64,000 nt of DNA from Tetmemena sp. SeJ-2015 (Eukaryota > Ciliophora > Spirotrichea > Sporadotrichida > Oxytrichidae). The notes beneath the pieces were generated by a model. It ran no database searches and had not been told where the DNA came from. It saw only the letters and a program-made list of their open reading frames with translations. Position 1 is the stretch's first letter. Every line of letters starts with the position of its first letter. Positions 11,424-47,943 of the stretch are shown here, piece after piece. The position numbers and the translations under genes were made by a program. The stretch covers positions 1 through 64,000 of the forward strand of contig JAJKFJ010022485.1 in the NCBI GenBank assembly GCA_027382625.1, in the 5' to 3' direction.

Positions 11424-11437
11424 GTATAGTAAATTAT
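11424..11437 (+). other. 14-bp pointer for CWC22 joining (GTATAGTAAATTAT)
   Basis: Identical to the reverse complement of 46033-46046, with mismatching bases on both sides. The first six bases, GTATAG, supply the 3' splice site of the intron completed by joining; TAAATTAT codes for Gln-Ile and the start of Met. Confidence 0.9.
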
Positions 11438-12238
11438 GGATTTCACCGAGAAGGATCTGATAAACTTGAGGAGAGTGATCTATCTAGTGATTATGTCCTC
11501 AGTTGACTACGAGGAGTGCTGCCATAAGCTGCTGAAGCTGAATTTCAGAGAAGGGTAGGAGGTTGAGCTTTGCAACATGATTTTGGAGTGTAACATGTAA
11601 GAGAGGACCTACCTCAAGTTCTTCGGCCACCTAGGACAACGATTGTGCTAGATAAATGAAGTCTATCAGAAACAGTTCCATGACTTGTTCATGCGACAGT
11701 ACTTAACTATCCATAGACTTGAGATCAATAAATTGAGAAATGCAGCCAAGTTCTTTGCTCACCTGCTCTATACAACAGATATTATGGAAAGTGGACATGC
11801 TTGTCCAGCATCCGCCTTACTGAGCAAGATACTACTGCTTCCTCGCGTATCTTCGTTAAGATTCTATTCCAAGAGCTCGCAGAAAATATGGGCATGGAAA
11901 ATCTTCGCAAGAAACTTAATGATGAATCTCTTAAGCCTCATCTTGAGAATCTATTCCCTAAAGACTCAGTGCAAAATGCCAGATTCAGTATCAACTTTTT
12001 CACGAGTATTGGACTCGGAGCACTTACAGAAGAATTAAGAGAGTTCTTGTAGCAGGCTCCTAAACTCTTATTGGAGAAGAAATATGCAGAGTTACTTGCC
12101 TAAACACAGCAGTCAGATTCCTCAGACTCTTCGGATTCTGAGTCTTCTTCAAGCTCAAGCTCTTCTTCATCAGAATCTGAGTCAGAGCAGAGTGAGAGAT
12201 CGGCGAGGAAAGAAAAGAGAGATAGAAAGGGAAGATGA
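11424..12238 (+). CDS. CWC22: CWC22 C-terminal half (MA3 domain), scrambled MDS
   Basis: CWC22 is a spliceosome-associated factor that links splicing to exon-junction-complex loading by holding eIF4A-III. This half begins within [19 protein letters not shown] and runs through the MA3 region: [35 protein letters not shown] and [20 protein letters not shown] are all hallmark blocks. An acidic Ser/Glu tail follows, then TGA at 12236-12238. The MIF4G half is absent here and lies at 46033-47943 on the other strand. The left boundary is the 14-bp pointer shared with that half. One base is missing from an A run near 11788, breaking the frame between HLLYTTDIM and SSIRLTEQ. The 3' end faces the 3' end of the next gene, 84 bp away. 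Confidence 0.93.
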
Positions 12239-12321
12239 TGAATGAAATAAACCAAAGATCATTTTATCTTGGAGTGTAGTAATTAATTTTAAAATACCTT
12301 TTAACTAAGTTAAGCTTATCT

Positions 12322-14715
12322 TCATAATTAAATCTTAGTTCTTGGTCCTGAGTATCTGCTGAAGAAAAATAAAAATAAGGTATATAATAGACTGTTATTG
12401 AAAATTGCCGCACTGTCACTTAAGTTCGGATTCTTTGTTGGCAGCGGTGGTTGAGTTGAGGTTGCTTCCTATTTAGGGAAAATTCCAGAGACGTTAAGGT
12501 CAGTATTCAGAGGTGGGAAGCATACCTGGTCCTCCTCTATATTGATTAGTTGCCAAATTAAATGTGTTCATTGGGATCCAGTTGCTCAAGCATTTGCAAA
12601 TCATTTATATCTGGCATCTCAGTCTAGTTAAGCTAGTCCTTAGATTGCTCATTCAAATTATTATCTCCACTTTTGCCAACAATTCCAGATCCATTAAGCT
12701 CCAAATTTAACCCACTGCTCTTTACCGGTCCGTTACTTCCTTTATTACCAAAAAGAGCCCTGGTGGTTTTGAAACTCTAAGAGCGAGTATTTTGCCCTTC
12801 GTTCTTTCCTTGGAAGGACTAATTTAGCTTTTGCTGAGACTGCTTTAGTTAAGAGAAATTGGATCCTCCCAAGCCTCCTCCTATATTTCCCAGTGCCTGA
12901 CTAGCTCCATGAGATATCTTGGAGGAGTTCTAATTTGAGCTCCTGTTGGGGAAAAGAGCTTCATAAACTTTAATTAGAGTCTTCTCGTTGTTTACGAAGA
13001 GGTCAAGTATATTAAATTTGTCCTTAGATGTGAAGTCACTGAGTCTGATTTTGTTCTTGGCAAGAGCAGCTAACTTTACCAGGCTTTCTTCGAACTCCCT
13101 TGAATCCTCATCATTCTTAGCTGAGTCAAGGTTGCTGAGATTCAGGAGACCCTTCTTCTTCTGGATGATTTCGTTCTTGAGTCTGCGCTTCATGATCTCC
13201 TTCCTCACGTCTTCAATATCAAAGTTAACTATTTATTATTGATTCAAAATATAATTCTTTATAAATGCAATCCACAAAGAGTGATTCTAGTTCATTCTTT
13301 TCAATAGCTGCATTTACCTTCTGACCCTGGATCTTCTTGAGCTTTCTTATAAGTTGCTCGTTATGAGCTCTTAGTTCCTTTATCGTGTCATTGTAAACTT
13401 AATTGGATAAATAAGATAAGATAAGTTAGTAAGATTAGTTTAATTAGTTTCAAGTACTTAGACATAAGCTTTTATCTCAGTCTGGATCTCTTGCTTAGTC
13501 ATTTTTGACTTGTAGAGCAGCTCAATAAAGTTCTCGAACTTGATGTTGTGTGTAGGTATGTTCGCATATCTGGACACGCTGCTGTTCGTTCCCAAAGACT
13601 GATAAAAATATAACAATTTATAGTGATATCTCTTGTGGTGGGTCTTGCTTTTGTGCATAGACGAATTCTCGATGAGAGAAGGCTGCATAGTCGACAAGTC
13701 TTGTAAGTTAGTACTTTCCAGTCCATTCTGACCAGTGGGCTGGCTAGTCATTCGAGGAGAATAACATTTAATGTAGAAGGTTTGAGACTATTGAAGGCCT
13801 GGGTGTTGAAAAGGCCGCTCGTATTTATCTGGTTGGTGCTCTGGTCTGCTAAATTCATCAAGTCTGTTAAGAAGAACTAGCTCTTCTACTGTTGCTACTG
13901 CTCTTTCTCCTTCTGCTCTTGGCCCTTAGTGAGTCGTTCCACTTCTTACTGTAGCTTACCCACTGCCACCTTCAGTAGTTTATTCTTCTTCTTTGTGTCG
14001 AGAGTTTGCTTATGGAGGAAATTATTCTCGCTTTCGAAAGTGTCGGACTTGTTCTTCCATAGTTTGATCTTATCCTTGAGCTCAGCCATTTTCTAGTCCT
14101 ACTTGACTGCCTGCTCCCTCAGTTAATGCACCTCAATCATCTGAGACTTCTCATCTTTGAGAGCATTTCCTCCAGCAGCTGTTCTGTCACTCAGCTTTTA
14201 AATTAGGTCTCTGAGCTCCTTCTCCTTGCGCTTGACGTAGATGTTGTAGCCCTTGAGGTAGTCATACTCCTGCTTCATTAGCACTCTGTTCAGTTTCACA
14301 TCCAAGTCTTTTATTGTATCGTCCAGGTCAGCCCTGATCTTCTCAAGCCTCTGCTACCCATCTCCCATCCCCATAAATTACTCACAAAAGATAATGATTA
14401 TAATGAGATATTTAATAAAGTTTATTAGAATGTGCTTAGTTGTCAGATGTGGCGCTATTCTCAAGAGCGGTGTTGTTGATGCTCGTGCCGTTTCTAAAGT
14501 CAGGTATGTTCATATATTCTAAGTAAAATTATGAATAAATCATGCTATTGGTTTTGCTCATGATAGCAGGGCTGTTGTAGAGTTGCTGTTGCTTGCTACC
14601 TGGCTAGGGACTCAATCCCAGCATCAAGTTTATCTCAAAAATAATATCTTACTGTCTTGGGGTGCTTTCTTGAAACTGAGCCAGGTTGGTTGTTAGTCCT
14701 TCCTTGAGGGGACAT
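12322..14715 (-). CDS. Coiled-coil protein with Ser/Asn-rich C-terminus
   Basis: Begins at ATG 14713-14715 (MSPQGRTNNQPGSVSRK) and ends at TGA 12322-12324. The N-terminus is low-complexity. It is followed by a strong coiled coil at about 14380-13930 (QRLEKIRADLDDTIKDLDVK, then KRKEKELRDLIQKLSD), a polar middle, a second helical region near 13740-13200 (KFENFIELLYKSKMTKQEI; VRKEIMKRRLKNEII) and a Gly/Asn/Ser-rich tail. Small AT-rich inserts interrupt it; one near 14525-14556 has an ATG pointer and joins SKTNS to MNIPDFRNG. A one-base deficit near 12577 is needed to read through to the end. It may be an axonemal or basal-body protein, but no family is recognised. Confidence 0.7.
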
Positions 14716-14739
14716 AGGGACTATCTTGAATTCATTTGG

Positions 14740-15010: not shown

Positions 15011-15021
15011 TCACAAAGAGA

Positions 15022-22097: not shown

Positions 22098-23378
22098 ATG
22101 TAAGAGAAGAAGGAGGATTCCTAAGGTGCTTTTATTGCTAAAATTATCTTGGTGGTGTGTGCTAAGACTAAAGCTAAATTCAAACTTTAAAGAACTAAAA
22201 ATAAGCTGAGCTTGGAATAGATCTCAGAGAAAGCAAATATGTTGATGCTGAAGCAACATTGCTCGATTTCTCTCTTTCAAAAATTGCTATTGTTATGAAA
22301 AAAATACCAGAATGCCTAATTTAGTAAAGTGAGAATTTAAAATCTTAGTAGGCCATTTCAAATCCCTAATTCAGTGTCTCTCTTCCTCCAATTCCAGTTT
22401 AGCTGAGTAAACAGCAATTATAATTTTTATATCTATTATTTAAAGAGTTAAGAGTCTTCAACAAGTCAACTTAAGATCTATTTCGAAGTTGTAAAAGCCT
22501 ACTCAATTGAAAATGCTAAGCTAGCAGGATAACTGAATACAGCCAACAACTATCAGCATAAAGTCTTGATCAAGCAGTCGCTCTTAAATACGAAGATAGG
22601 AATGCAAAACTCTTCTAGTAATTTTGTAGATCAATAAATGCCCTCTCATTCTTCATTCACGCTAAACCCTATTTCATCAGTCAGCTAAGGATACGTCTCA
22701 ACAAGAGCCAAAAGATAGAATACTTAAATTGCTCCTGCTTTTGCTTAGAATTCAGATCTCAAGAGAGACTAAATTGATTAAGAGATGGAAGAACCCTGAA
22801 TCAAATGCCATTTTTAATTATTATCTTAATCTTCAGAAGATCTCTTTCATAAATCTGAAATACATGAGTATCACTAACTTACTATGTTTATAGACTTCTT
22901 CTATCCTTTTGTTTAAATTTCACCTGACGGGAAGCACAAAGTGACTTCCTACAAAGAAAAGAAAATTTTGCTCGATACTTCAAAATCCTCATCAACTACA
23001 GGCCATGAAAATACCAATTCTGATTCTACTCACCCAGTTTAACATTAACAGGCAGGATAAAATCAAGCACCTACACATCATTTTACAAACATTTACGATG
23101 CCGACGTGTCAAATGATAATGAGGTGAACTTTATTTTGTTCTCCAACACTACTGGCTCTATCTTCTTGATCCAAAGAGAAAGAGCGCAGATAAGTTTCAA
23201 ATGGTCCTCAAACTTTTGGATTTATATCATCATTGGAATTCATTTAGGTGCTTTGTTGCTGGGAGTTCTTCATTTCTCCTTCATACTTCACTACTAGTGG
23301 CAAAATAAAGATAGATAAATCTCAAACCAACAGTCACAGCCAGTCCTTGTAAGATTGTTCAATAGATTTTAAAACTGA
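22098..23378 (+). CDS. Single-pass membrane protein, function unknown
   Basis: Coding blocks run from ATG 22098 (MQEKKEDSQGAFIAKIILVV) through KYVDAEATLLDFSLSKIAIV, then a Ser/Gln-rich segment (22480-22795). A region near 22880-23110 reads DFFYPFVQISPDGKHKVTSY, and a transmembrane segment follows near 23215-23295 (WIYIIIGIHLGALLLGVLHF). It ends at TGA 23376-23378. Two or three frame changes imply IESs near 22225, 22440 and 22800-22890. The layout suggests a luminal domain anchored by a C-terminal helix. I do not recognise a family. Confidence 0.55.
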
Positions 23379-23383
23379 TATAG

Positions 23384-23596
23384 ATGGAAATGAACTACAG
23401 AGAAGCAGCCTAGTCAGGATGGAACATGGACCCGATCAACGGAAACAAGATTATCGTAGAGGGAGTGGAGGCAAGTGAATGGGATCCAAGCGACCCTTCA
23501 AAAAAGAAAGTTAAGAAGAGCAGGAAATATTCTTTCGATCAGCCCAGCAATAAGAAACAGCCAGAGCCATCTTATAGAAGGCAGTAAAAGGAGTGA
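23384..23596 (+). CDS. 70-aa Lys-rich small protein
   Basis: ATG 23384 to TGA 23594-23596 without interruption. The N-terminus (MEMNYREAAQSGWNMDPING) is mixed and the C-terminal half is Lys/Arg-rich. It begins 5 bases after the previous TGA, in a different frame, so it could instead be a continuation of that gene after a frame error. There is no upstream AT-rich spacer, which is unusual here. Confidence 0.4.
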
Positions 23597-23745
23597 GAGT
23601 ATTAAACTTTTCCTTAAGACGATAAATTTATCCGACGTTTAATTTCTTTAAATTAGTCTTACAAATCAAACTTATGTTTATCATCCTTCTCCTGTCATTT
23701 TGAATATTCATTAAATAATAACTTCTATTTTTAAGTATATAAAAT

Positions 23746-24268
23746 TCATGATGGCATTCGGGGTCCAGTATTTTCTTGATTAGGTTTGTTAGAAATGAAG
23801 TTAGCTGATTTCTCTGCTTGACTCTACCATAGCCGGTATTCTTTCATTTTGGGGAGAATCTCTTGATCAAGTTTATCTCTGAGTTTATTCCTGAGGTCGA
23901 TCAACTTTATCATTATGAGTGGATTTAGTGACTAGGAAATTGTAAATCAAACTTGCTGCTTCAATGTGTGGGTGAGCCATCAGAAGAGTCAAGATCACTC
24001 TTATCTCGTATGAGAAAGGGAAGATTAATAAGTTAAGATAAATATTTTTTGTATGTAAGAAATAGAGAGTCTTGTGGATGAGGTGGAGCACGCAGTAAAA
24101 TATCCAGTATGTGGTCCAGTGGTTAAGTTTTTGCATATTGGGTCTTTTCTGTTTATTGTGTCTCAGGTAGAATAGCGTCTCATAAATTGGGTAAAGCAGT
24201 CCACAAAAAATGTCTGCTGAAAATAGCAGAATACTAAACTTAACTCTTTACAATAAAACCAACTGCAT
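23746..24268 (-). CDS. REEP / DP1 / HVA22 family ER-shaping protein
   Basis: These proteins insert hairpins into the endoplasmic reticulum membrane and shape tubules. The minus strand from ATG 24266-24268 reads hydrophobic SILLFSADIFCGLLYPIYET, then NHWTTYWIFYCVLHLIHK, then FPFSYEIRVILTLLMAHP followed by AASLIYNFL. The TYW...FPF...AA.L(I)Y pattern is the TB2/DP1/HVA22 signature. A short insert within 24020-24060 (around LHTKNIYLNLL) and another near 23900 shift the frame. The last part reads LRDKLDQEILPKMKEYR and ends at TGA 23746-23748. Length, about 150 residues, fits the family. Confidence 0.8.
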
Positions 24269-24446
24269 ACAAGAATTAAATTTACAGATAAAGCGAAATA
24301 AAGCCATCGATATTGAAATTATTTATCAAGTTAACTTATTATAAAACACTATGTACTTCTTTCTAACTTAATCTGTAATTGTAAATTGTGAAGTTTTTGT
24401 GTGTTTAGAAAATTTAATTATAATAAATAAGAAAGGAAGATTAAAT

Positions 24447-25134
24447 ATGCCTCATTTGATTTCCAACCTCTACGAGAAAGCTTACACCCCCTTCACTGCT
24501 AAGCTTGCCCCAAGACATCTCTGGTCCAAGCCCCAGCTTGGTAAGTTCTGACCCAACACCCAAACTCTTAAAGTCCCCAACTGTTACTTATGATATGGCA
24601 TTATAGGCAGAAAGCCCCAGAAGACTACCAGATTCGGCTAGGACCCCACTGTGAAATCCATCTGGAGATTCGTGAGAGGATGGGTTGCTCAAAACCACAA
24701 GCTATACTACACCTTCGTTCTTCTCTGTAAGTTATACTGCTGTTGCTAATTATTTGTGCAGGCTCTTGGGGAGTATATCAATTCTGGTGGTACACCGTTG
24801 TCGGTTACTACAGACAGAGAAACCACCACGTAAGTCTCAAGTGAAAAGATAGAATTTTCCAACATTTTATTGGCATTATAATGAAATCTCATTATAAGAT
24901 TTGCAATTATTAATTAAGTTGCTTATCACAATGGATGGATTTCATCTTGTTCTGAGTTTAAACCATAACGAGTGAATGCTGATTGTTTTATAGAGATCTC
25001 TCGCTTACGCCATCCAGAAGGAAAAGGAATGGGACCTCATCAAGCCCAAGGAAGAAGAAGAGGAGGAAGAGGAGGAGACTCCCGCCGCCGAAGGTGGAGA
25101 GGCAACTGCTGCCGCTGGAGAAGAGGAAGAATGA
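24447..25134 (+). CDS. Small single-TM protein with acidic tail, three GT-AG introns
   Basis: ATG 24447 to TGA 25132-25134. Introns at 24541-24606, 24727-24761 and 24830-24993 all begin GTAAG and end AG; they join QLG-RKPQKTTR, FVLLC-SWGVYQFWW and RNHH-RSLAYAIQKEK. The mature protein is about 137 residues: a basic N-terminus with an aromatic-rich helix (YTFVLLCSWGVYQFWWYTVV), a basic helix and a Glu-rich tail. This layout recalls small mitochondrial inner-membrane subunits, but I cannot name it. Unlike most neighbours it is GC-richer, has clear introns and shows no IES. Confidence 0.8.
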
Positions 25135-25595
25135 GCGTCTCTCAGTGAGCTCATTCGCACCAAGAATAGCTAGCTCTCCGTCTTGAATGAATAGTCGTTC
25201 TGAAGAAAGCCGAGTAATTAGCGAGATCAGCAACTGCAGTGATCAGCCTACCAGAAGCTTCTCAAGCTGAGCACTCAACAAGCTCTTCACAATCGACTAT
25301 AATTCCTATTTAAAATTATAATTCACAATCCCTCTACACTCAATTATTCCTCTCGTTTTAATGTCGAACTACAGAAATTGAATTTAATGATTAAACGAAT
25401 AGTATTTAAGTTTATATTAATATCAAGATGACAGACGCGCTTTGTTGTGTGCCCTGGCGTCAGAGTTATAAATATAAGGAGGTCCTATATTATTCGCATC
25501 TTCTGGTCGCCACCATTTCTGGATAGAATGGTCAGAGACGCCATTTTCTTGTCTGCCATCAGTTGCTCTAACTTTATAAGTCAGAAAACGACAGC
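25135..25595. other. Intergenic, convergent
   Basis: A possible 3' UTR. A short plus-strand reading at about 25184-25270 (MNSRSEESRVISEISNCSDQ) looks coding-like but ends after about 29 codons. No other feature is seen. Confidence 0.3.
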
Positions 25596-26178
<583 letters not shown>

Positions 26179-26776
26179 TTGAAAAAAAGAATGGATAGAG
26201 TTGGTCGATGAAGTTTAGGTATATTTATTACTATAGAATAATAGGACACGAATCCTTTTGAGGTCATCCTCACTTGAGAGACTAGGCACTTTCAATTATT
26301 TCTCAAGACAAGACCTCCAAAAATGCTATCTTTTTATTCGGACTCCACTTAAATTTCATAATTTCATGGCCTCGTTTTTGTTGTCCAACACTTTAATTAT
26401 GGGAGGAATTAATTTACCATCAAATAGAAGTAAAATGATTAAATTTCTTGTATCTTTAGTTTGTTAAATTTATTACTGAATCTAATTTGATAGCAATTCA
26501 ATTATTTAAAAACTAATTAAGGCAATATGATTAAGACTTATCACATAGCTGAACAGCAAAATGCGAAAAGATTGACCTACTATAAAAAAAATTATAAGTA
26601 AATCAGCGAATCGGAATAGAGAAAAAACATTTATATTTTGATGACTAACTTCTTCTTCTTCTTTTTTATTTATATTTTTTTAAAAATATAAAATCTGATT
26701 TCCTCCCGAATTCAATTTATAATTTATAAGAAAATGATATTAATTGTGCTCTTGAAAGAATTTTTAATTTCTGTGA
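26179..26776. other. AT-rich intergenic
   Basis: Upstream region of the histone gene. No convincing gene; a 69-codon plus-strand ORF near 26258 overlaps the promoter region and is not supported by composition. Confidence 0.4.
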
Positions 26777-27079
26777 AGGATAATAAGTTGCTCTGATAGA
26801 AATGATAAGTTTTCTTTCATTGATAAGAAGCCATGTGAAAAGGAAATAGATCCATTTTCTTATCTCAGGATTCTCCCATCCCGAGGGGTATAATAAATAA
26901 GGGAGTCACTCAGTTCCAAGCCCTCTTCGATTGAATAAGAGCTAGGTCAAGATCTTAAATTTATCTTGAAAGTTGAGAAAATGATAAATAATTTAATTTA
27001 ATTATCGACAATTTCAGCACTTCAATTTATTAATTTAATCTTAGCTTTACTTCACAACGATTATGAGGCATGGCTGTGA
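26777..27079 (+). CDS. Orphan coding segment without ATG
   Basis: With TAA/TAG as Gln, a plus-strand frame stays open for 100 codons to TGA 27077-27079 and has normal protein composition (EKEIDPFSYLRILPSRGVQQ, then KFILKVEKMINNLIQLSTIS). No start codon or upstream exon was found. It may be an MDS of a gene whose other segments lie elsewhere, or the 3' part of a gene with an unrecognised first exon. Confidence 0.4.
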
Positions 27080-27263
27080 ATCTATTGAATTCTTTTAGAT
27101 GAAGTACTTCAATTTGGAGGAATTTGAAAGTGTATAAATCTTTAAGTTTATAACTAGAGCAATAGCTAGAATATCGAATAATAAATCATACTGCACAACA
27201 GCTGCCCGCTCTTCGCTTAAAACGCAAAACTAAGATAGCTATTCTATCTCATCACCCTCAATC

Positions 27264-28175
27264 TCACTGATCGTTCTTGCCTTCCTCGTCTCTGCCTGCA
27301 TCTGCAAGGTCGCTTGTCCAGAGAGTCAGGTTATCTCTCAACAACTGCATGATTGTGGCAGAGTCTCTGTACTCGTCATCTTCAAGTCCATCAAGGTCTG
27401 CGATTGCATTGTCGAAAGCAGTCTTGGCTAGCTTGCAAGCGTGGTCGGGTGAGTTCAATATTTCATAGTAGAACACAGAGTAGTTCAGAGCTAATCCAAG
27501 ACGAATAGGGTGAGTGGTTTTCAAGTTCTCAGCCTCAGTGGTGGCAACCTTGTAGGATTCTTGTGCTTACTGGATCACAATTTTGCGTCTATATTCATAA
27601 TTTTAGCATCCATTACTTATCTGCCATAAAGATTGATCTACATAGGAGAGCGAATTAGAACTTACCTCTCAGCATTTAAGAACTCTCCAAGATATCTGTA
27701 ATAGTCTCCCTTCATCTTGTGGTAGAAGACCTTAGCCTCTGGGTTCTTGGAGCAGGGAATAAGAGGATTATCTAACAGCTTTAGTACATCATTGCAAATA
27801 TCCTCAAGCTCTTTCTCTATCTTTTGGCGATAGCCCTTGATCAGGTCCACGAATTTGGAGTTCTATTTCAAAAGTTAATATGAGCTAGTACTTAAATTAA
27901 AATGCAACTTACTCTGAACTCCTCTCTCTGCTGAATTGCTGAAATGGTTCTCCAGGCAGCTCTTCTTGATCCAACTGAGTTCTTATAAGCAACACTCAAA
28001 AGATTTCTCTCCTCGTTTGAAAGTTCTTGTCCGCTCTATTAACAAAGATATATCTTGAATACCAATAAGAAATACATACATTAGCGACCTCCTTCATGTA
28101 TCTAATCATATCTTCGTAGCGCTCTCCTTGCTCAGCAAGTCTTGCAAAGTAGATGTTGTCCTCTCTCTGGTTCAT
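27264..28175 (-). CDS. 14-3-3 protein
   Basis: Phosphoserine-binding dimeric adaptor. Starts at ATG 28173-28175 ([20 protein letters not shown]) and ends at TGA 27264-27266. Introns at 28036-28079, 27863-27912 and 27589-27665 follow GT...AG. Diagnostic blocks are [36 protein letters not shown] (helices carrying the basic pocket Lys, Arg and Tyr) and [16 protein letters not shown], then [10 protein letters not shown] before the acidic tail. About 245 residues, the normal length. No IES detected. Confidence 0.95.
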
Positions 28176-28295
28176 TTTTGATTTTAGAAATATTAATTAT
28201 TTATTCTTTCAAATTCAAAACATTGATATATTGTAAAAAAAATTTTTATAAAAAATTAAATATGAAATTAATAGCAAAAAATGGATTGTATATAA

Positions 28296-28718
28296 TCAAA
28301 ACCTGTCTCCTCTAATTCTGCGGGCGAGTAAAATATCTTTGGCCATAATGGTAACTCTCTTGGCATGGATAGCGCACAAATTTGTATCTTCAAAGAGTCC
28401 AACGATGTAAGATTCAGCTGCTTCCTGAAGTGCGAGTAGCGATTGACTTTGGAATTTGATCTCAGTTTTGTAGGAAGTTGCGATTTCGCGCACTAGTCTT
28501 TGGAAGGGCAGCTTCCTAATCAGCAAGTTACTTGATTTCTGTAATTTGCGAATTTCTCTTAGTGCCACGGTTCCAGGTCTGAAGCGATGGGCCTTTTTTA
28601 AGCACGGTCTGCTTACCATCTTGCACAGTCACCTTTTCCCCGCAGCTTTGTTCATCAGGTTCTTTCTGGGAGCTTTGGCGCAGTGCATCTTTCTTGCGGT
28701 TTACTTGGTTCTTGCCAT
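28296..28718 (-). pseudogene. Histone H3 variant, frameshifted copy
   Basis: Same protein family as the three open copies in this window. A two-base gain near the KAARK region (about 28635) puts TGA in frame. A further base in the Lys-Lys codons near 28595 returns to the original frame, so the last 100 residues are still readable. I207-type changes are few: SSNLL instead of SSELL and IMAKD instead of IMPKD. The frame errors may be real decay or assembly errors; the substitutions favour decay. Confidence 0.8.
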
Positions 28719-28893
28719 TTTGGATTTTGATTTGGAATGTAGAAGTTCTAGTTTATATTTATTATAGTGGTAAAATTTATTTATTCAGTCACTATAAATT
28801 TTTGAATATTCAAATCAGTTCAAATACTCTTCATAATTAAAATTTTTATAATAAATATATATATCCTTTACTTTTTAAATTCCAAAATCCAAA
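28719..28893. promoter_or_regulatory. Bidirectional promoter region between H3-variant copies
   Basis: The 175-bp AT-rich spacer between divergent ATGs is itself partly palindromic and contains TATAAAT near 28790 and TATATAT near 28856. Promoter function is inferred from the divergent arrangement only. Confidence 0.4.
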
Positions 28894-29313
28894 ATGGCAA
28901 GAACCAAGTAAACCGCAAGAAAGATGCACTGCGCCAAAGCTCCCAGAAAGAACCTGATGAACAAAGCTGCGAGGAAAGTGACTGTGCAAGATGGTAAGCA
29001 GACCGTGCTCAAGAAAGCCCACCGCTTCAGACCTGGAACCGTGGCACTAAGAGAAATCCGCAAACTGTAAAAGTCAAGTGACTTGTTGATTAGGAAACTG
29101 CCTTTCCAAAGACTGGTGCGCGAAATCGCAACTTCCTACAAAACTGAGATCAAATTCCAAAGTCAATCGCTACTCGCACTGCAGGAAGCAGCTGAATCTT
29201 ACATCGTTGGACTCTTTGAAGATACAAATTTGTGCGCTATCCATGCCAAGAGAGTTACTATTATGCCCAAAGATATTTTACTCGCCCGCAGAATTAGAGG
29301 AGACAGGTTTTGA
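28894..29313 (+). CDS. Divergent histone H3 variant
   Basis: 139 residues from ATG 28894 to TGA 29311-29313, with two TAA codons read as Gln (Q5 and one in the alpha-N helix). The tail is [21 protein letters not shown]4, K9, K14 and K18 remain, but S10-T11-G12 is replaced by Met-His-Cys. The segment after K27 is [17 protein letters not shown] instead of the usual sequence, so S28 is also lost. The fold ([40 protein letters not shown]) is well conserved. No intron or IES. It shares the region with three near-identical copies. Confidence 0.9.
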
Positions 29314-29460
29314 TCAACTACAATCCATTTTTTGCTATTAATTTCCGATTTAATTTTTCAAACTACAATAATACTTCTTTGTTTTTATTTTGTAAATTTA
29401 ATTTCACATTTATTCATCAATCTTTTTAACTAACTCATTCAGATTTTCATTCAATTCTTT

Positions 29461-30299
29461 TTTTAAATAATTATTTTCTAAATATATTTTTCTTTGACTG
29501 AACTACACCTTCTCCTTATGTTAAATGTAATTTACTTTTATTCTATGCCTTAAAAAATTAAAATTAAGAGATATTGTTTTTCTTCCAATGGTTATAATAT
29601 AGTTTTTTATTTTTTTAATGAACATTTCTTATTAATTTGCTTTCTTATTCATAAATTTTATATTACACTTTTCATATAATTGCTGAATCTATACTTTGAA
29701 TCCTTAATAGAGAGTTTGACCAATTTTGTATTTAAATATTTTCTTAAAATATAGATAAATCTAATAAAAATGTTGATTTTACTCAACCAACATGAAGATT
29801 ATAAATTTTAAAAAGTTTCAACCTTCCAAGAGTTTTCTTATTCTGATTTAATGTTTTTAAAAAAAAGGTAAATTTTAATATTTTTTACTTTGAATATTTT
29901 ATAATAATTTTAAGGAATTAAAGCACCTCTTTTGACATATATAAATTAGGTAAAGCAAGAAGATTCTATCATTTAATACTTGAGGTCACCCCCTTTTCTT
30001 ACAAATTAAATATAATCATAATTGTCTAACCTATATTTATGTTTTTGACATGTCTAGCAATAAGTTTTTATTCCTTTCTTAAATCTTTTAAATGATGTTT
30101 GGCTTTAATAATAGAAATGTTTCTTTAATTATCTGTTCAAAAATGAGGTAATTGTCATCTTCTCATGCTGACATATTTTAATAAATTGAAGAGATTCTTA
30201 ATTTATTTAATTAAATATTAGATTATAAAAATATTTAAGTAGTATTTTATCTAGTCATATATATAATGTATTAATAATGTAAATTCTTCGAAGCTCTCT
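29461..30299. other. AT-rich spacer
   Basis: Very A/T-rich with no coding composition on either strand that I could find. Confidence 0.5.
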
Positions 30300-30797
30300 C
30301 CTAGCTATATATATTGTTGTGTTAATATTCTAGCTACTCCTACACATGCAGCATTTTCTAATCCAATCTTGGATTCATTGAATGGAGAATCTGTTGGGAA
30401 AGCTTTGAAAGATCCTGTAGTAAATCTTTTGTTGGTTTCAGCTAAACTTTCATGGAAAATAATATCTGCAAACTAAGGAGCTACTGTGACTGTAATGGTT
30501 CTTGCTTCATTTGTTGGACTTGAAACGATTAGATATCTCAAAAATAATTACCCTGATATCCCTATTGAGGAATTACGGCAATACGGAGCAATCGTATCAT
30601 GTGCGGCTGGAGGCTTCATTGGATGGCTTGTACCTGGCTTCGGACAGATTGTAGGATGTATAGTTGGGGCAGCAGGTTTTGTACTATCAACTCTATTGAA
30701 TGATGTGAAGGCTTAAATTGATTGGAAGAAATTAGATTAAATTCTAAAAGAGAATGAAAATATAATATAAAATATTTTAAGGAGGAAATGTTAATGA
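30300..30797 (+). CDS. Glycine-zipper membrane protein (intact copy)
   Basis: Open from about 30300 to TGA 30795-30797; no clear ATG near the 5' end, so the start or an upstream exon is unresolved. The sequence carries LNGESVGKALKDPVVNLLLV, then ETIRYLKNNYPDIPIEELRQ. A Gly-rich hydrophobic pair follows, with AAGGFIGWLVPGFGQIVGCI and VGAAGFVLSTLL, spacing small residues as in glycine zippers. The tail is Lys/Asn-rich. A mirror copy lies at 36060-36500. No family is recognised; a pore- or hairpin-forming role is only a guess from composition. Confidence 0.6.
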
Positions 30798-30974
30798 GAG
30801 CTGAAAGAAGATTTTGTGATATATATTTAAGGATATTTATTTTGTCTTTAATGAAGACCTCAGTAAAGAGATTCTTCCTTTAAAGAATCTAACAAATTTA
30901 TCTTTTTTTTAAGTCTTGGGTTTTAAAGGATAAATAAATGCTAACATTAAATTATTAAAATAATTATTTATTCT

Positions 30975-31135
30975 TTTTTATGCCTAAGGATTTGAAAACA
31001 GTTTTACTGATAGACTCTGAGCAGAATTAGATACACATGAGATCAAGTGCCATGTTGAAGGTGCTTCCATTGATGAATTCAAGATTCTGGAGAGCAGCTT
31101 ACTACCCACTTTCTATCATACCAGTTTTCATTCGT
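30975..31135 (+). other. Orphan coding-like segment
   Basis: A plus-strand reading near 30990-31132 contains AELDTHEIKCHVEGASIDEF followed by KILESSLLPTFYHTSFHS, a composition typical of a real protein. A TGA precedes AELD and no neighbouring exons were found. It lies just outside the left end of the transposon, so it may be a displaced MDS or gene remnant interrupted by the insertion. Confidence 0.35.
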
Positions 31136-31861
31136 GACAATTCAAATTTTATAATCAATTATTTCTTATTACTCTAAGCATATATTGAGTGTGTACAAAT
31201 TAGTCAAGTCTCTTATTTAATCATTTTCATAGCTTTTCATTCAAACCCCAAAACCCCATAAAAATATGATAAGAAAGTGAAAATAAGTTTATGTATATAA
31301 TTAATTTCTTTATTTAATACTATTTAAATATTCTATGTGCTTATAAATTTTTTTAAACCCTAAACATGGCAATCTAAGAGTCTTCTAGGAAGTGTGACCT
31401 TGAACGGTCTGTCTTTCATATTCTTCTGGAATTTTAATTCTTTTAAGTGCTCCTCTTATTCTCGAGAATAACTGAGTGTTATGGGTTTTATAAGATGTGC
31501 TCTTTGATTTATTATCTTCCTCTTCTTAGACTTTTTCATAATGGTTCTGTATTACCGTGTTTGTCCCGTTATCTTTACAGATGTCTTTGTTGCCGAATAT
31601 ATTATGTATCATTCTTTCCACTTTTCTACACTAGTAGTATTTTCCCTGGTGTTCATATGCTATTCAAGTATGATTTGCACTATATGACCTTATAATGTCC
31701 AGCTGCACTTTTGTAACGTTATGAGCCAAGTCTGTTCCTCTAATGGGAAGTAGCTTCTGCAGTTCTTGCCACCGATGCTTCTCAATGTTTTCTTCTTCTT
31801 ACAAACCTCTTGTTGAGGGTGGAGGACAGTTTTGCTCTGCAACTTTGGTTCCAAAATTTAA

Positions 31862-32100
31862 TCATGATTGATGTCTCATGGAGTTGAATTTTCTCTGTGC
31901 TACGAATCCCAACTCATGCACTCCAATCACTCCTTCTATTACGGAGGTAGTGATGAATATGCAGTAGAGCTAGTACTGTGTTGCGCCATCTTTGTGCTTG
32001 AGAAATTTCTTTGTTGATCTTCCCATTTTAGGAAGGCGAATGGCGATGATAATCATGATGGATAAGAACACCAGCAAGATGTAGAGTACGTACTTCAAGT
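31862..32100 (-). pseudogene. TBE-like ORF remnant with a membrane segment
   Basis: The minus strand reads a hydrophobic helix, YVLYILLVFLSIMIIIAIRL, followed by a basic region and an amphipathic C-terminal part ending at TGA 31862-31864. The start is not resolved. It lies close to the left terminus of the element. A small membrane-type ORF of unknown function fits one of the non-transposase TBE genes, but that link is inferred from position. Confidence 0.4.
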
Positions 32101-32527
32101 TTTTGTCCCTCGCTTATCTCAATCAACACGGTCAGTTCGTTCGCGAACTCAAGAACCCCTCTTTGTCCTTCTTGTACTAAATGGTTAATTCGTAAGGGAA
32201 TAATTGTAAGTTCATATTATCTCTTCTTGTATTGATGGTGTCTCTTTCGCTTCGTCATTCAGCAAGGGGGAGGTTAATTTTTGAAACACACTCCTCCAAA
32301 GTTTCATACTCTCTAAAGCATGTGAGTCTTTGCTTTGAGCATAGCTTGAAACTTTATTGATCTATACCATAACACTAAGGCTTCTTGAATATCACGAACT
32401 CATATCTTCTTCTATCTTTCTTTTCTCCCCTTTCGCTTCCTCGTTTTAGTTGAAATCTTGTCAAATGTGTTAGGTCTGTGCTTGTCTTACTGTGCACCAT
32501 CTTTAAAGTTTTCTTTATCCTCAATTA

Positions 32528-32921
32528 TTACGAACTCAGCCATATGCTTCTTCTCCATGTGTTTTTCTTGAGGAAAGCAGAGTTATAGAATTTCTGCTCA
32601 CAAATTGAGCAAGGATAGCGACCTTGTGCCTTTCTAATTGCTTTCATATAGATCTTAGGTTGTCTGAGTGGACTTCCTTGATGTGCCGCTTGATGCTCTG
32701 AGGATATTCGAAACTTGTCGTTGACATTACTGCGCATTCAAAAGTTTTCTTTCTCCTTCATGTGAATCTCTGGATGCAGCAACAAAGAGGAGCATCAGTG
32801 TTGCTGTATATTGTGTTAATATCGCTCTCACCTGACTTCTCAATCTTCTAGGTTGACCATATTTAAGCACAGAGATTCTTCTTGCTCCGAGCTCCAAGTT
32901 CAGAGAGCTCTCCCCTTGCAC
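32528..32921 (-). pseudogene. TBE-like zinc-finger ORF remnant
   Basis: In the minus strand the reading YPCSICEQKFYNSAFLKKH gives a C2H2 finger (C-x2-C-x12-H) once one extra A near 32572 is ignored; the next codons supply the second His (MEKKHMAEF). TBE elements are known to encode a zinc-finger protein beside the transposase. Upstream to 32921 the frame changes at least once more. It is decayed or error-containing. Confidence 0.55.
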
Positions 32922-33647
32922 TTAGTGCACTCACAGCATTTTGTTTGGTTGCTGTTCCGCAACAGTTTGATTTTAGCTTGTGTGTTTAAGGGTTGTACTT
33001 TGTTTTCTATAGCGTAGTTGGTTGCCCATCTTTAAAATTTCAAATTTGTTAGAAAATTAATGAAGAGCGCCTGCCACTTAATTTATTATGTTGCTGTGCC
33101 TAGGTGCAGGCACACACTGAGAGCATCAGAGTGAAAGAGTCAGTTATTGGATGGTTCTTCATCTTCTTATTTATTTTTATATTTGTGCTCCATATTTATT
33201 GCTCTATTCTGCTTGATTTTTGCTACGATTAAGTTCAACGCAGCAGTTAGTAGTGCTTATTACTAATGTCCGTTGGCCACCATGTTAGTAATGTCGACGC
33301 CACGAAAGGCTTAAAAATAGCTGGCTACTTACATACAACTCGATTGTAACTGCTCTATTGTTGCAGCAATTTAGTATTTGCCTAACTTAATTAAAGTTTT
33401 TAAGCAGTATATATTAGTATTAATTTAATGGCCACTTTACTATTAAAAAAGGAGCTCCCATACTTCACATACTTGCACCTGATTCCGCTATAGTTCCTCT
33501 AGCTCTATCTAATTTCAGCTTGTTCACCTATAGATCTCCTATTTGTAAAAGTAGTAAGACTTTTATGCTTCTTTCGGATCTAGATTCATTATTAATAATT
33601 ATAACTTTTGTATTTTCTATATATAGAACTACGAGTAACTCGGCAAG

Positions 33648-34135
33648 ATGGGTGGAAAACTTGAATGTTTAATGAGAATTAAGTAGTGGAGCCGCAATGA
33701 GTTGAGCTAACAGGTTTCCGTAAGCAAGGAGACCTCTAACAGGTACTTACTTAGCAAAGGTGAATTGAAGCTCCTCATGCTATGGAGTATAATAATCTTA
33801 GTTGGTTTTTCCTTCACAATGTATGGAACAAAAGATCTGTTCCCAAAGAATTTCTTTGCTGAATGGAAGAGAAGTCTTTCTCAATTAAAGAGTCGATGTT
33901 CCAACATTGAATGAAGATGCCAAACTATTCCTGAGAATCTCAGTCTATATTGTAATGACGAGAATGTGATGGGAAGATTCCGGAGGTTTTTGCTCTTATT
34001 TCCTTCTAAACAAGTTGGATCATAACCTCAAATACAGATGTTGCCAAGAACTGAATTGGTCTTCTTTGGCCGTCCTTGCTACTGTAAATATCGTGCAGAG
34101 TACCTCAGAAGATATCATTGAAGATGCATCACAGT
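33648..34135 (+). pseudogene. TBE-like ORF remnant, one TM segment
   Basis: ATG 33648 (MGGKLECLMRIKQWSRNELS) opens 88 codons with the membrane segment LLMLWSIIILVGFSFTMYG. One base shift near 33895 continues as VPTLNEDAKLFLRISVYIVM, then a TGA, then further open sequence to about 34135. It resembles in layout the minus-strand remnant near the opposite end of the element. The frame breaks indicate decay. Confidence 0.4.
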
Positions 34136-34499
34136 GAATGAGATTCTTAATGTGTAGTAGGAGAAGATCCAAAAGAAGCAATGAGATAGTTATGTGCAGC
34201 GACTGAATGGTTTGAGCACTATTTCAGTAAGTATCCTAGTTTCTTCTTAGTAAAGTTTGAGAGTTTAACCTGTGTAGAGAAAGCCTTGTTGCACTGTGGG
34301 CGATCTACTTTTAATTGAAGAGAGCAAGGTTTCTTGATGCTAACGGTATAGCAAATATACATAGCTATTGAAAGGTGATCAAGCGTTATCATCTTATATA
34401 TACTTAGGGTGCGGAGGACGTTAGATGCATCTAGTATGCGTGTTAGCATTGGATTTCGAATTGTAATTGAGCGAGTCTTGCTTCCATCAGTGGTTCATT

Positions 34500-35092
34500 C
34501 ATACAGTAAGGATGAGAAATTGTATATCATCTTTTAAAGAATCCTTTCTTCCATAAGTAAGTCAATAAGTGACTTAAGGTCATTAATTGTTAATGCTTAA
34601 TATAGCTTTTCTCTTAAATATTTAACTCTAAACTATCATCTTCTGCAACTATAACTTTGTCTTCCTTCTTTCTCATTCTTTCTCTTGCTACTATCTTACT
34701 TATTAAATTCCTCTGTAGTCGATAGCTATCTTATGCAATTCAAGTGTAAGAGCCAGTTCAGTCTTCTTTATAGTGTTTCTTTAGACTTTAAGTTCTCAGT
34801 AATAACTCAAATGCCGTTTGACTTCTGGTTCGTAGTATGTGAACAATTATAATAACAGTGAGTGATGTTCAATTCTTTCTAGCGTAATTGCCCTTCTTCG
34901 CTCCTTTGCTTGTGTACGCTGGAGGTTGTTCTTACTGAGTAGAACGATCTCTACCTGTCTGTGAAATCTTCTTTCTGAGGCTTTTCTTAAGGAACGCAAC
35001 ATTACCTGCTTTCTCTCTTGATTGAGCGAGGATGAAGGACAATAGCTTCTAAGCCTGAAGTCTTCGCTGATTCCTGCAAGGTAACGCATCAT
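34500..35092 (-). pseudogene. TBE-like basic/coiled-coil ORF remnant
   Basis: From ATG 35090-35092 (MMRYLAGISEDFRLRSYCPS) the frame is open for 81 codons under the standard code and continues, reading TAA as Gln, into a Lys/Arg/Glu-rich helix (EIVLLSKNNLQRTQAKERRR). Several frame breaks follow to about 34500. Function unknown; grouped with the transposon by position. Confidence 0.35.
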
Positions 35093-35899
35093 TGTAGTTA
35101 TATTTTATGACTTTCTAACGTTCGTATACTTTCTATGTTTATCGTGCTTCTTGTATCTAACTCTGTTTTCCTGCATGAAGGTTGTTTGTGTGTGGACATC
35201 TTAGAATTATGTCAGCAGCATAAATAACTTACGCTATCCTCTTCTCACTAATTTCGCTGAGCCAGGTGTAAATTAGATTATTTTCAGTAATTAATTATAT
35301 ATTAAAATTGGCTTTAGTTGAGGGTCTTATATACGCGCTTCACTGCGATTCCCTAAACAGTTTTGATACGTTATGCCATTTAAGGATAGATTGTTTTTGC
35401 TGAGCAGTTCTATTATCGGAGAGATCTTTGAGATAATGTGAATTTACTTATCTTATGGAAAGATCTTTCGCTGCTGACTATTTTATCCAATACTTGAAGT
35501 GCGCTTAGTGTGGGCGAAGAAGTTGAGGTATTAATTTCAATTTATTTAATATGATGTGCTATCTTTTGAAACTTAGAAGTGTCAATTGAGGTAACATTGC
35601 TGCAACTCCTACTTTCTCATCTCTGCAAGCAACTTTCAAATGCGAGAGTATAGTGTTCGCTTGGCACTCTCAACATTTTTTGCGATGGATTTGATTTTGG
35701 GCGGTATTACTACTGATAAGGGGACTAAATCCATCCCTTAGAGAAAATGAAACTGAGATGGATGGGTATTTTTTTGGGAAATTTCCTTTAGTTTAAAGTT
35801 TAAATAAGAAATTAATTTTTCACAACTTATTTTACTTTCTTATCATTTATGGGTTTTTTAATGAAAAAATTTAAAAATTTTAAAATTTTTTAACTAATT

Positions 35900-36059
35900 T
35901 TTATCAATTTTTATTGCTAAAAGATATACATAGTTTGCAATTAAAATTAGATAAATCAAAAAAAAAAAGAAAAGACAAAATTTATACTATATAAATTCAT
36001 AATAAGAATTAATTTTTCGCCTTAGCATGCTGCTTTGTTCTTGTAATTCTTTCATTAGC
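35900..36059. other. AT-rich spacer right of transposon
   Basis: Poly-A/T tracts, no coding signal. Confidence 0.5.
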
Positions 36060-36500
36060 TTTTCATTTTCCTATAGAATTCTTTCTAATATTATCCAATC
36101 AATTTAAGGCTTCGTCATACCATCCATATAAGTACACCCATACCATATAATACCTAACTATGCATCCCATAAATCGCCCAAGCCTGGTATAATCCATCCG
36201 ATGATGACCCCTACATAACAAAAAAATATTGGTCCTATATAAGAGCGTAACTGCTCAATTGGAATATCTGGAAAATTATTTTGTAGGTATTTCATAGTTT
36301 CTGGTCCAGCTTGTGAATCAAGAATTATTCCAGTCAATTAGTTCCTTAGTTTGCAGATAATATTGTCCATAAAGATTATCTGAAATCAATAAAGATCTAT
36401 CACGGGATCTTTCAAGGCCCTCCCAACTGATTCTCCATTAAATGTATTCAAGAATGCTTTAAATACTGTTGCATTTGTTGAATAGCAAGAAGTATCAAAA
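36060..36500 (-). pseudogene. Glycine-zipper membrane gene, decayed mirror copy
   Basis: Clear homologue of 30300-30797 on the opposite strand: FNGESVGRALKDPVIDLY matches LNGESVGKALKDPVVNLL, and ETMKYLQNNFPDIPIEQLRS matches ETIRYLKNNYPDIPIEELRQ. An in-frame TGA follows DPVIDLY and the Gly-rich segment has diverged (GVIIGWIIPGLGDLW). The left copy is open, so this side has decayed. Confidence 0.75.
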
Positions 36501-36913
36501 TATTAAAGCAGGGAAAAATTTGAGATTTCATTTTTATTTTATATTACAAAAGTATAATTTTATTTTAAATATTTTTAAATAGATATTTAAAAATAATTAG
36601 AATATCTTTTAATTAACTTAATTATGGAAAAAACAAACTTTTGGAAAACTAAATTTGCTTAAATTTCAATTCAATCTTTAAAATTAAAAAGATTTCATTA
36701 AAATAAATGTTAAAAAATGAAAATAATTAACAAAAAGTATAAATAAAGCATAAAATTAAAAATAGAAAAGATTTGTATGAAAATCTGAGTGAGTTAGTTT
36801 AAAAGATTGATGAATAAATGTGAAATTAAATTTACAAAATAAAAATGATGAAGTATTATTGTAGTTTGAAAAATTAAATATGAAATTAATTGCCTCAAAT
36901 TAATTGTGGGCTA

Positions 36914-37333
36914 TCAAAATCTGTCTCCTCTAATTCTGCGGGCGAGTAAAATGTCTTTGGGCATAATGGTAACTCTCTTGGCATGGATAGCGCACAAATT
37001 TGTATCTTCGAAGAGTCCAACGATGTAAGATTCAGCTGCTTCCTGAAGTGCAAGTAATGATTGACTTTGGAATTTGATCTCAGTTTTATAGGAAGTCGCA
37101 ATCTCGCGCACCAGTCTTTGGAAGGGCAGTTTCCTAATCAGCAATTCACTTGACTTCTGCAGTTTGCGAATTTCTCTTAGTGCCACTGTTCCAGGTCTGA
37201 AGCGATGGGCCTTCTTAAGTACGGTCTGTTTGCCGTCTTGCACAGTCACCTTCCTTGCAGCTTTGTTCATTAAGTTCTTTCTGGGAGCTTTGGCGCAATG
37301 CATCTTTCTTGCGGTTTGCTTGGTTCTTGCCAT
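36914..37333 (-). CDS. Divergent histone H3 variant
   Basis: Intact 139-residue copy, ATG 37331-37333 to TGA 36914-36916. The protein is identical to that of 37518-37937 and differs from the 28894 copy only at one residue in the alpha-1 region (SSELL versus SSDLL). All Gln codons here are CAA/CAG, so it is open even under the standard code. Met-His-Cys replaces S10-T11-G12, and Val replaces S28. No intron, no IES. Confidence 0.92.
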
Positions 37334-37517
37334 TTTAGAGTAATTTATTTGGAATTTAAAAAGTAGAAGTTATATATTTATTATAGAGGTGAAATTCATT
37401 TATTCAGTCACTATAAATATTTGAATATTCAAATCAGTTCAAATACTCTTCATAATTAGAATTTCTATAATAAATATATAACTTCTACTTTTTAAATTCC
37501 AAATAAATTACTCCAAA
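37334..37517. promoter_or_regulatory. Palindromic bidirectional promoter region
   Basis: The first and last ~65 bases between the two divergent H3-variant ATGs are near-perfect inverted repeats (AAGTAGAAGTTATATATTTA on one side and its complement on the other). The middle holds CACTATAAATATTTGAATATTC. Promoter function is inferred from arrangement and the TATA-like elements; hairpin formation is possible. Confidence 0.45.
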
Positions 37518-37937
37518 ATGGCAAGAACCAAGCAAACCGCAAGAAAGATGCATTGCGCCAAAGCTCCCAGAAAGAACTTAATGAACAAAGCTGCAAGGAA
37601 GGTGACTGTGCAAGACGGCAAACAGACCGTACTTAAGAAGGCCCATCGCTTCAGACCTGGAACAGTGGCACTAAGAGAAATTCGCAAACTGCAGAAGTCA
37701 AGTGAATTGCTGATTAGGAAACTGCCCTTCCAAAGACTGGTGCGCGAGATTGCGACTTCCTATAAAACTGAGATCAAATTCCAAAGTCAATCACTACTCG
37801 CACTGCAGGAAGCAGCTGAATCTTACATCGTTGGACTCTTTGAAGATACAAATTTGTGCGCTATCCATGCCAAGAGAGTTACTATTATGCCCAAAGATAT
37901 CTTGCTCGCCCGCAGAATTAGAGGAGACAGGTTTTGA
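37518..37937 (+). CDS. Divergent histone H3 variant
   Basis: Intact 139-residue copy in head-to-head arrangement with 36914-37333, encoding the same protein (see that entry for residue changes). ATG 37518, TGA 37935-37937. Synonymous differences between the two are few, pointing to recent duplication or ongoing gene conversion between the palindrome arms. Confidence 0.92.
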
Positions 37938-38329
37938 TTATATACAATCATTTTGGTGCAATTAATTTCCGATTTAATTTTTGAAACTTCAATAATGCTT
38001 CTTCATTTTTATTTTGTAAATTTAATTTCACATTTATTCATCAATCTTTTAAACTAACTCACTCAGATTTTCATACAAATCCTTGCCTTTAAACAGTCTA
38101 CTTGCAATTTCTTCTAAAGCATCGAAGAAGCTATTTAAATCCATTTAGCTATTTTCACTTTTTCTTACTACATTCTTGTATAATTTACCTTACTTTATAT
38201 TTGAATATATTTTTAATTTAATCTTTTATTATTTAATTTTTTATATATTGTTTTTATTATTGTATATAAGATCGTAGTGTGCTTTTAAGAGGCCTGCATT
38301 AGTTAATCCTTGAAATTTGCTTAGCCTTT

Positions 38330-45973: not shown

Positions 45974-46032
45974 TGCTAAGTTTATGTTTATTTGAAATAT
46001 TTTTTTAAAAATTGTATAAAAGACACAAGCTA

Positions 46033-46046
46033 ATAATTTACTATAC
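46033..46046 (-). other. 14-bp pointer for CWC22 joining
   Basis: Reverse complement reads GTATAGTAAATTAT, identical to 11424-11437. It closes a 63-nt segment starting at the 5' splice site GTAAGT (46103-46098), so MDS joining creates a complete intron ending GTATAG. Confidence 0.9.
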
Positions 46047-47943
46047 GGATGGTTAGACTTCAATGAATTTGTGAATAGAAAATTGGGCTAATAAGTTACT
46101 TACATTCTTATCCTGCTCCTATTCTTCTTCCTCTTCAGACTCGTCGTCTTCTCCCCTCACTAATCCTGCGCCCTCCACATTAATTCTGTGATCCTCCACT
46201 TCTCCTAATAAACAACTCAAATTTTAATTTTATTTATTATATTTATTATTTAATTTATCTCTTTCTTTATTTCGTCCCACTCTGCTTCAGTCTGCTCGTA
46301 GTTGGGGTCATACTGGAATACATTAGTTTCCTCCGCTGTCTCCAGTTAATCCTCACTATCTTCCAAACTCACATTATGAGTTATCTTGTCTTCCTCCTCC
46401 ACCAGGTCTAGCTCAGGGATGACGCCAGGGTGCTCTGCAAAGCGAGTCTTCCTAATCGCAAACAGGTTCTCAATTGTGTATTGCACCTTCTTGGCTATCT
46501 CTCCCTCGTGCAGGATAGTTCTAAATCGCTCGAAGATTGCATTCACTCCTGCGGGAGTCACATCAGTAAGTACCTGTCCACACTCTACCATAAAGTCTGC
46601 TGCTATCTCCACAGAGTCCTCAGTTGGATTTTCTAACATCAGAGTCAGGAGTTCAAGTCCTAGAATCTCATTCACCACTTGCTAAAATTATCCATTTTAT
46701 TGGTTTAGTTGTATATGTTATAGTTAACAAAATGAGCAAGCATGCGAGTTGTAGCCATGCACACGATCTTGTTGTTGCGTTTGTAAGCCTTCTAGAATTG
46801 AACGATATATCTGTTGATGATGAGTCTCACCAGATAAAATAAACATACACATCAAGAGATCTGGGAGCTTGGTATTAATCACAGCAATTAGAGCAGAGTA
46901 GACATGTGAGAAGTTAGGTGAGGCCATTTGTGCTTTCATAATTGCTCTTGCCAGCAGACCCTTTCCTCTCAAGAGGTTTTCGTTGAAGAGTTCAAGAATG
47001 ATGTTTTAGATGTTTGCTGTGTTGACCTTATTGACTATTCCATTGATGGACTTGCGCAGTTGCTCCCACATATACTTTTAGTGCTCCATTGAACTCTTCT
47101 CCTTGTTCTTTAACTCCTCAAGCATAGCCTTCATCTTGAAAGGAGGCATGTACACTTAACGAATAAATTTAACGAAGATTAAATAACACTCCTCCAGCAG
47201 CTGATGGCAAGAAAGCATTCCTCAGTCCTTCTGGCTTAGGAGGTGGCTTTATAGACGCTAAGAGTTCTTCTGGCTTTGAGTCAGGCACTGCAGACTACTT
47301 CTCATTTCTGTCAGCCTCATTCCTTTGCCTGGGATACTTTTATTCTTCTTTTGAAACGTGTTATCTCTTTCTGTCGGACTGAGAGCTATGGTCTCTTGGA
47401 GATCTGCTCCTTGATCTCCTGCTTCTTCTATCTCTAAAAAGAAGGTAAATTAATTTGAGAAGTCTATGAGAACGTTCATCCCTTCCTCTGTTAAAATAAA
47501 ATAGTTCTTATTTCTAGAGTGATATCTATCCCTGCTTGAAGAATGCGATAGAGAACTCCTCCTTCTCTTTCGATCTCGATGACTGTCCCTTCTTCCTTTG
47601 TTGTTGTCTCTGTTGTATTTAGTAGACTTGTCTTTTCTTTCATCAGAAGACGTAAGTTAAAAGAATAAACGAGTGATGCCTATTATGTCTTCTTCTTGAG
47701 TGGTCCCTTGACGAAGATGAGGAAGAGTGTCTCCTCCTCCTTTCTGTGCGGTCTCTGCTTCTATCGCTCTTTTCATTATTTCTACTCTTCTCTCTATTTA
47801 GCAGATAAGTTAACTTCATAATTAATTTATTTCCTTATTCTACTTACTGTTTGAGTGTGGCTTAATGATCACCATCCCTATTCTTAAATTCAGCAGTAGT
47901 AGGCTCTTTTAGCATTTCTAATTTTATTATAATTGTTGCTCAT
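46033..47943 (-). CDS. CWC22: CWC22 N-terminal half (RS region and MIF4G domain), scrambled MDS
   Basis: ATG at 47941-47943 or 47913-47915 (MLKEPTTAEFKNRDGDHQAT). Arg/Ser dipeptides (RSRSPRDHSSQSDRK) occupy about 47860-47330. KPEGLRNAFLPSAAGGVLF leads into the MIF4G domain: WEQLRKSINGIVNKVNTANI, LLRGKGLLARAIMKAQMASP, NNKIVCMATTRMLAHFVN, EILGLELLTLMLENPTEDSV and AIFERFRTILHEGEIAKKVQ. The acidic linker ends EEQEQDKN at a GTAAGT splice donor. The MA3 domain that should follow is missing and is found inverted at 11424-12238. Inserts occur near 46690-46730, 47150-47180 and 47640-47680. Both halves together match the length and domain order of CWC22. Confidence 0.93.

Follow-up and report, generated by a model that had tools for sequence, protein, structure and literature searches.

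The window analysed here comprises the first 64000 of the 88506 bases of contig C3153, which belongs to an assembly of 146 Mb in 5213 contigs. In this window a gene for CWC22, a core splicing factor that is essential in other eukaryotes, was found in two pieces on opposite strands, 34 kb apart. The two halves and the short repeat that they share are listed below.

46033 to 47915, minus strand: first half, with MIF4G; coding from the ATG at 47915 down to the pointer, with seven short IESs inside
46033 to 46046, minus strand: pointer copy 1, GTATAGTAAATTAT, which closes the first half; the identical 14 bp are present in contigs C4000 and C264
11424 to 11437, plus strand: pointer copy 2, GTATAGTAAATTAT, which opens the second half
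11424 to 12238, plus strand: second half, with MA3; TGA at 12236-12238, frame break near 11786

The initial annotation had described inverted CWC22 halves with a common 14-bp pointer, and both copies are indeed exact and placed as claimed. The 14-mer GTATAGTAAATTAT occurs twice in the window without mismatch (14/14 bp), and the two occurrences are inverted relative to each other. With one mismatch permitted, 0.14 matches would be expected, and two or more were obtained in 2 of 100 shuffles of the window. Random pairs of 200-bp pieces of the window, matched for GC content, shared at least 14 bp in 26 of 20000 cases. Assembly-wide, GTATAGTAAATTAT was found exactly at 11 places, compared with 12 for the reversed control. 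The motif is thus common in the genome, and the evidence lies in its place and phase rather than in its rarity. As to place, the pointer exactly ends one segment of the gene and starts the following one, and the two segments of this single gene lie on opposite strands of C3153. An inversion is needed to join them, as had been proposed.

The joined protein was built with genetic code 6, in which TAA and TAG are read as glutamine and TGA as stop. IESs and a 63-nt stretch at the joint were removed, and the frame break in the second half was bridged by X. This resulted in a protein of 806 residues with Pfam MIF4G at 256-438 and Pfam MA3 at 550-651. The joined protein was aligned over a long distance with the CWC22 of 5mqf, which we take to be the human protein (E 7.1e-187, residues 106-792 on residues 13-701 of the chain), and with the MI-domain protein of 8xi2 (E 6.8e-191, residues 51-804). 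Both the order of the domains, MIF4G then MA3, and the long alignment with a solved CWC22 identify the product as CWC22. A scan of both halves against NCBIfam gave no match.

The joint itself is in frame and lies in a homologous region; the frame break near 11786 is separate and further on. When the 63 nt (GTAAGT...TATAG) are removed, ...EEEEEQEQDKN runs onto the start of the MA3 half. Relatives of the protein were compared at this position (120 listed, 10 fetched). EDKNDPN[A/Q]I[L/M]DFSEKDLINL is found at the joint in five of the ten fetched relatives (P0002, P0003, P0005, P0006, P0008). The remaining five are without DKN and keep the core D-x-T-E-x-D-L. The proposal that EEQEQDKN is joined onto the MA3 half as in orthologues is borne out, with the frame kept and half of the fetched relatives similar at the joint. 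Since the sequence around the joint is acidic and differs from relative to relative, homology does not place the splice points to the base.

Both regions are present in one protein in all ten fetched relatives. Eight of the 120 listed relatives (P0003-P0006, P0008-P0011) have both domains and a longest contig of 2.1-2.5 kb; by their size, these contigs are presumably single-gene macronuclear chromosomes. In a tree of 22 rows (21 relatives and the CWC22 described here; P0001, a plant record of 1204 residues, was left out), this CWC22 groups with P0004, P0007, P0009 and P0010 (99/96). P0007 has W where others have C, as if TGA were read as cysteine, which we take to be euplotid-like. The lineage described here is of interest because its CWC22 is placed together with such an apparent TGA-as-cysteine protein, although its genome reads TAA and TAG as glutamine. 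DNA of relatives was searched for in viral contigs and none was found.

Within the first half, the reading frame is interrupted by seven short inserts, all on the minus strand. The lengths count one copy of the flanking direct repeat of 2-4 bp.

47651 to 47669, minus strand: IES 1, 19 bp, pointer CG
47490 to 47503, minus strand: IES 2, 14 bp, pointer AAC
47433 to 47462, minus strand: IES 3, 30 bp, pointer TAGA
47153 to 47186, minus strand: IES 4, 34 bp, pointer AGTG
46831 to 46849, minus strand: IES 5, 19 bp, pointer TG
46683 to 46720, minus strand: IES 6, 38 bp, pointer TA
46209 to 46255, minus strand: IES 7, 47 bp, pointer TA

Because none of the inserts, as cut, has a GT start and an AG end, they resemble short IESs and not introns. 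Their pointers of 2-4 bp compare with 14 bp at the scrambled joint. In the parts of PMC9797194 considered here, pointers of spirotrichs are likewise longer at scrambled than at plain junctions. The MA3 half contains no IES-like insert, but its frame changes near 11786 (11780-11790). Of the copies found, one covers this position, as contig C4851, which carries the end of the second half, begins at 11937. The frame break may be an assembly error, a tiny IES or a real shift. A small IES at this position was tried and rejected, since no candidate of up to 38 nt combined a good repeat with a good fit.

Directly at the joint, the first half ends in a stretch with the properties of an intron.

46041 to 46103, minus strand: putative GT-AG intron, 63 nt; the last 6 nt (GTATAG) lie inside the pointer

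The first 6 bases of the pointer are accordingly the 3' end of the putative intron and the last 8 are exon bases. The GTAAGT start, an internal CTAAC, presumably a branch-like motif, and the TATAG end are unchanged in both diverged copies of the first half, on C4000 and C264. Compared with C264, 10 of the 63 nt differ. Read as codons, 7 of 21 are changed versus 0 of 322 MIF4G codons (Fisher p 1e-9). Bounded by GT and AG and free of coding constraint in between, the 63 nt thus appear to behave as an intron, and their translation as part of the protein was rejected on the same codon counts. The stretch consists of 21 stop-free codons in code 6, and its retention would add 21 residues. Splicing is therefore not needed for keeping the frame.

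The initial annotation had proposed that joining completes the 63-nt intron and that correct DNA joining would be a requirement for correct splicing. The intron-like stretch and the position of its acceptor inside the pointer were confirmed. However, the first half alone holds the full intron, donor and acceptor, as its own pointer copy supplies the AG. DNA joining hence supplies the downstream exon and not a splice site, and the dependence of splicing on joining is not supported in the form in which it was postulated. For an intron right at the end of the first half to make sense, an exon would nevertheless have to follow it.

A complete CWC22 elsewhere had been named beforehand as evidence against a scrambled gene. 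The 146-Mb assembly was searched with the DNA of either half and by tblastn with a 533-residue part, and no intact contiguous CWC22 was found. All 12 tblastn matches belong to the two halves or to their copies. The matches lie on four contigs, none in joined order: C3153 with both halves, C4000 and C264 with the first half, and C4851 with the tail of the second half. C4851 carries the last 302 bp of the second half, identical and at a contig edge. A search with the flank at 9400-11423 found no further copy in the assembly. C4000 and C264 run alongside C3153 for at least 22 kb and are thus haplotype or duplicate copies. In the three first halves (C3153, C4000, C264) the pointer is kept; the AT-rich sequence behind it is common to all three and contains no MA3 half.

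The first half was compared between C3153 and C264, the more diverged copy. After residue 215, 53 synonymous and 0 nonsynonymous differences were counted, and the RS-rich start showed 21.5 synonymous and 26.5 nonsynonymous differences. Judged by these counts, the first half is under strong selection at the protein level. The result applies to the first half; the only other copy of the second half is the 302 bp without a difference. We also considered whether the first half continues beyond the pointer into a conserved C-terminal tail, and rejected this. The tail is unconserved, with 99 residues in C3153 and C4000, 57 residues in C264 and a frame-changing indel.

Selection on the first half, together with the failure to find an intact copy, makes a working scrambled gene the most likely explanation. 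We consider it very probable that the window is germline DNA, that an inversion at the 14-bp pointer brings the CWC22 halves together, and that the intron is spliced afterwards. During macronuclear development, the seven short IESs would be cut out, and the two blocks would be joined by inversion through an exchange between the pointer copies, of which one stays. The macronuclear gene would be transcribed and the 63-nt intron would then be spliced out of the transcript. Both the DNA joining and the splicing are steps that we infer from the sequence. An ancestral inversion of 34.6 kb would have given just such an arrangement. A splicing factor gene would thus apparently be rebuilt from inverted halves before use and then be spliced at the joint.

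It is very improbable that the halves are two separately expressed genes that are never joined, the MIF4G half ending on its own and the MA3 half starting at an ATG at 11436. Such a start does exist, because ATG GAT TTC stands at the edge of the pointer, in frame with MA3. But the first half would then end in the unconserved tail, its intron would lie at an edge without a real downstream exon, and both the matching phase and the shared 14 bp would have arisen by chance. The presence of both regions in one protein in the ten fetched relatives also speaks against separate genes.

An assembly artefact, in which the halves would not be arranged in this way on a single germline molecule, has to be weighed against the DNA between them, and we regard it as very improbable.

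12239 to 46032, no strand assigned: interval between the halves, with unrelated genes for histone H3, tubulin-tyrosine ligase and a beta-helix protein, a TMEM214-like ORF whose match is weak and under the cut-off, and further ORFs with no Pfam match

Some eight genes or gene blocks had been placed in this interval. Unrelated genes are indeed present, but the scan does not confirm this number: at E 0.01, Pfam matches were obtained for 5 of the 30 ORFs scanned, and one of the five stays under its cut-off. The link between the halves is given by C3153 alone. The interval contains palindromic H3 copies at 28251-29460 and 36767-38084, and C4000 runs into 28251-30760 the other way, which could point to a misassembly. 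On the other side, the surroundings of the first half are confirmed by two other contigs, since C4000 and C264 carry the first half and then the same non-CWC22 sequence. A flip between the two palindromes would keep the relative orientation of the outer flanks, so that the orientation of the halves should remain unchanged. Even halves on two chromosomes would still constitute a scrambled gene.

The palindromic copies are about 1.2-1.3 kb long and about 90% alike. The Pfam match to histone H3 lies in an ORF at 28447-29310 within the first palindrome, and a further H3 ORF was found at 25599-26291. At C4000:22530-25077, the sequence passes from the second palindrome into 28251-30760 in the direction opposite to the window; either the segment between the inverted repeats is polymorphic for an inversion, or the assembly is ambiguous here. 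For 23660-28251 and 30760-36763, no long match was found on C4000, C264 or C4851. A genome-wide search with 22500-28200 matched only C3153 beyond 23660, apart from matches of less than 250 bp. The tRNA scan of the window returned 0 genes. A tandem direct repeat is present at 62699-63152 (period 250, 1.8 copies, 99% matches).

A germline inversion that broke the gene, leaving the 14-bp inverted repeat as a scar and the halves dead, would agree with the frame break in the second half and with the continuous gene that is restored by inverting 11424-46046, but it is highly improbable given the 53 synonymous and 0 amino-acid changes in the MIF4G part of diverged copies and the lack of any other CWC22 found in the assembly, and an origin by inversion is equally compatible with a working scrambled gene.

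A scrambled CWC22 is a known kind of arrangement. In the parts of the two genome papers that we draw on, 4.2 to 29.2% of the chromosomes of four spirotrichs are scrambled, many by inversion (PMC10901763), and a pathway of IES excision and joining is established in related ciliates (PMC9797194, PMC10901763). The CWC22 locus resembles the scrambled genes described there for Oxytricha, Tetmemena, Euplotes woodruffi, Strombidium and Halteria, which have disordered or inverted segments and short repeats that are kept once (PMC9797194, PMC10901763). The longer scrambled pointer and the embedding of loci of different genes in each other are shared with spirotrich scrambled genes as well (PMC9797194, PMC10901763). 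Unlike these genes, CWC22 has one scrambled joint found between two large blocks, and it is known here from germline sequence alone. A literature search for CWC22 in connection with ciliate micronuclei yielded nothing.

The overlap of a pointer with a splice acceptor had been called unusual. The coincidence of introns with junctions has been published before, and a pointer that contains an acceptor may itself have been reported. Table 2 of Chang et al. 2007 gives introns at MDS 1-2, 8-9 and 41-42, that is, across junctions, in the scrambled gene of DNA polymerase alpha (PMC1805493). In the passages of Feng et al. 2022 used here, 174 potential intron-IES conversions are counted, together with 306 cases of exact coincidence between species, and intron boundaries fall on pointers above chance in some comparisons (PMC9797194). 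CWC22 shares with DNA polymerase alpha, as tabulated, an intron across a junction of germline segments, but its 14-bp scrambled pointer itself holds the acceptor and the first 8 exon bases (PMC1805493). As in intron-IES conversion, an intron boundary coincides with a pointer; in contrast to that comparison between species, the coincidence in CWC22 is seen in one gene of one genome (PMC9797194).

More tentatively, the joint may be a composite site of DNA and RNA processing. The scrambled pointer would then be fixed from both sides, by the 3' end of the intron and by the codons, and the inversion that split CWC22 would have persisted because its breakpoint hit an intron edge. We see this as a possibility and would rather not expect it to hold. 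If it were true, the evolution of scrambled joints would be tied to intron edges within one gene. With its single joint, CWC22 lends itself well to the question whether scrambled pointers come to lie at the edges of introns.

The short IESs were also compared between C3153 and C264. Three of the seven are identical, and 14 of 201 sites differ in total, below the synonymous sites of the same gene (74.5/341; p 3e-6). This low divergence hints that the IESs may be under constraint.

Nuclear ribosomal RNA genes were found only as short scattered pieces in the searches of the same assembly, and these fragmented genes may exceed the CWC22 finding in interest. A yeast 18S sequence and two yeast LSU segments served as queries. 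For SSU rRNA, 10 matches on 7 contigs were obtained, the longest covering 138 query bases; these numbers are lower bounds, as the search skips very common words. With the same query and the same skipping of common words, the assembly yielded no long match to SSU rRNA. The exact SSU start is present at 4 places, where SSU sequence continues for no more than about 105 nt. Rfam scans of three rRNA-piece loci (L030-L032) gave nothing at gathering threshold or at E 0.1. The assembly may lack macronuclear rDNA because of filtering. The rRNA pieces support the view that this germline may be widely scrambling. They lie at the following loci.

C3484 (5421-34424); C2882:10797; C2641:4534-4821; C4617/C2920; C2382; C2134: rRNA pieces

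On C3484, LSU pieces that follow one another in the queries are separated and distributed over both strands; their ends share 5-12 bp (TGTCC, ACAGCCAA, CAAATGCCTC, GAAAGACTAATC) in a pointer-like manner.
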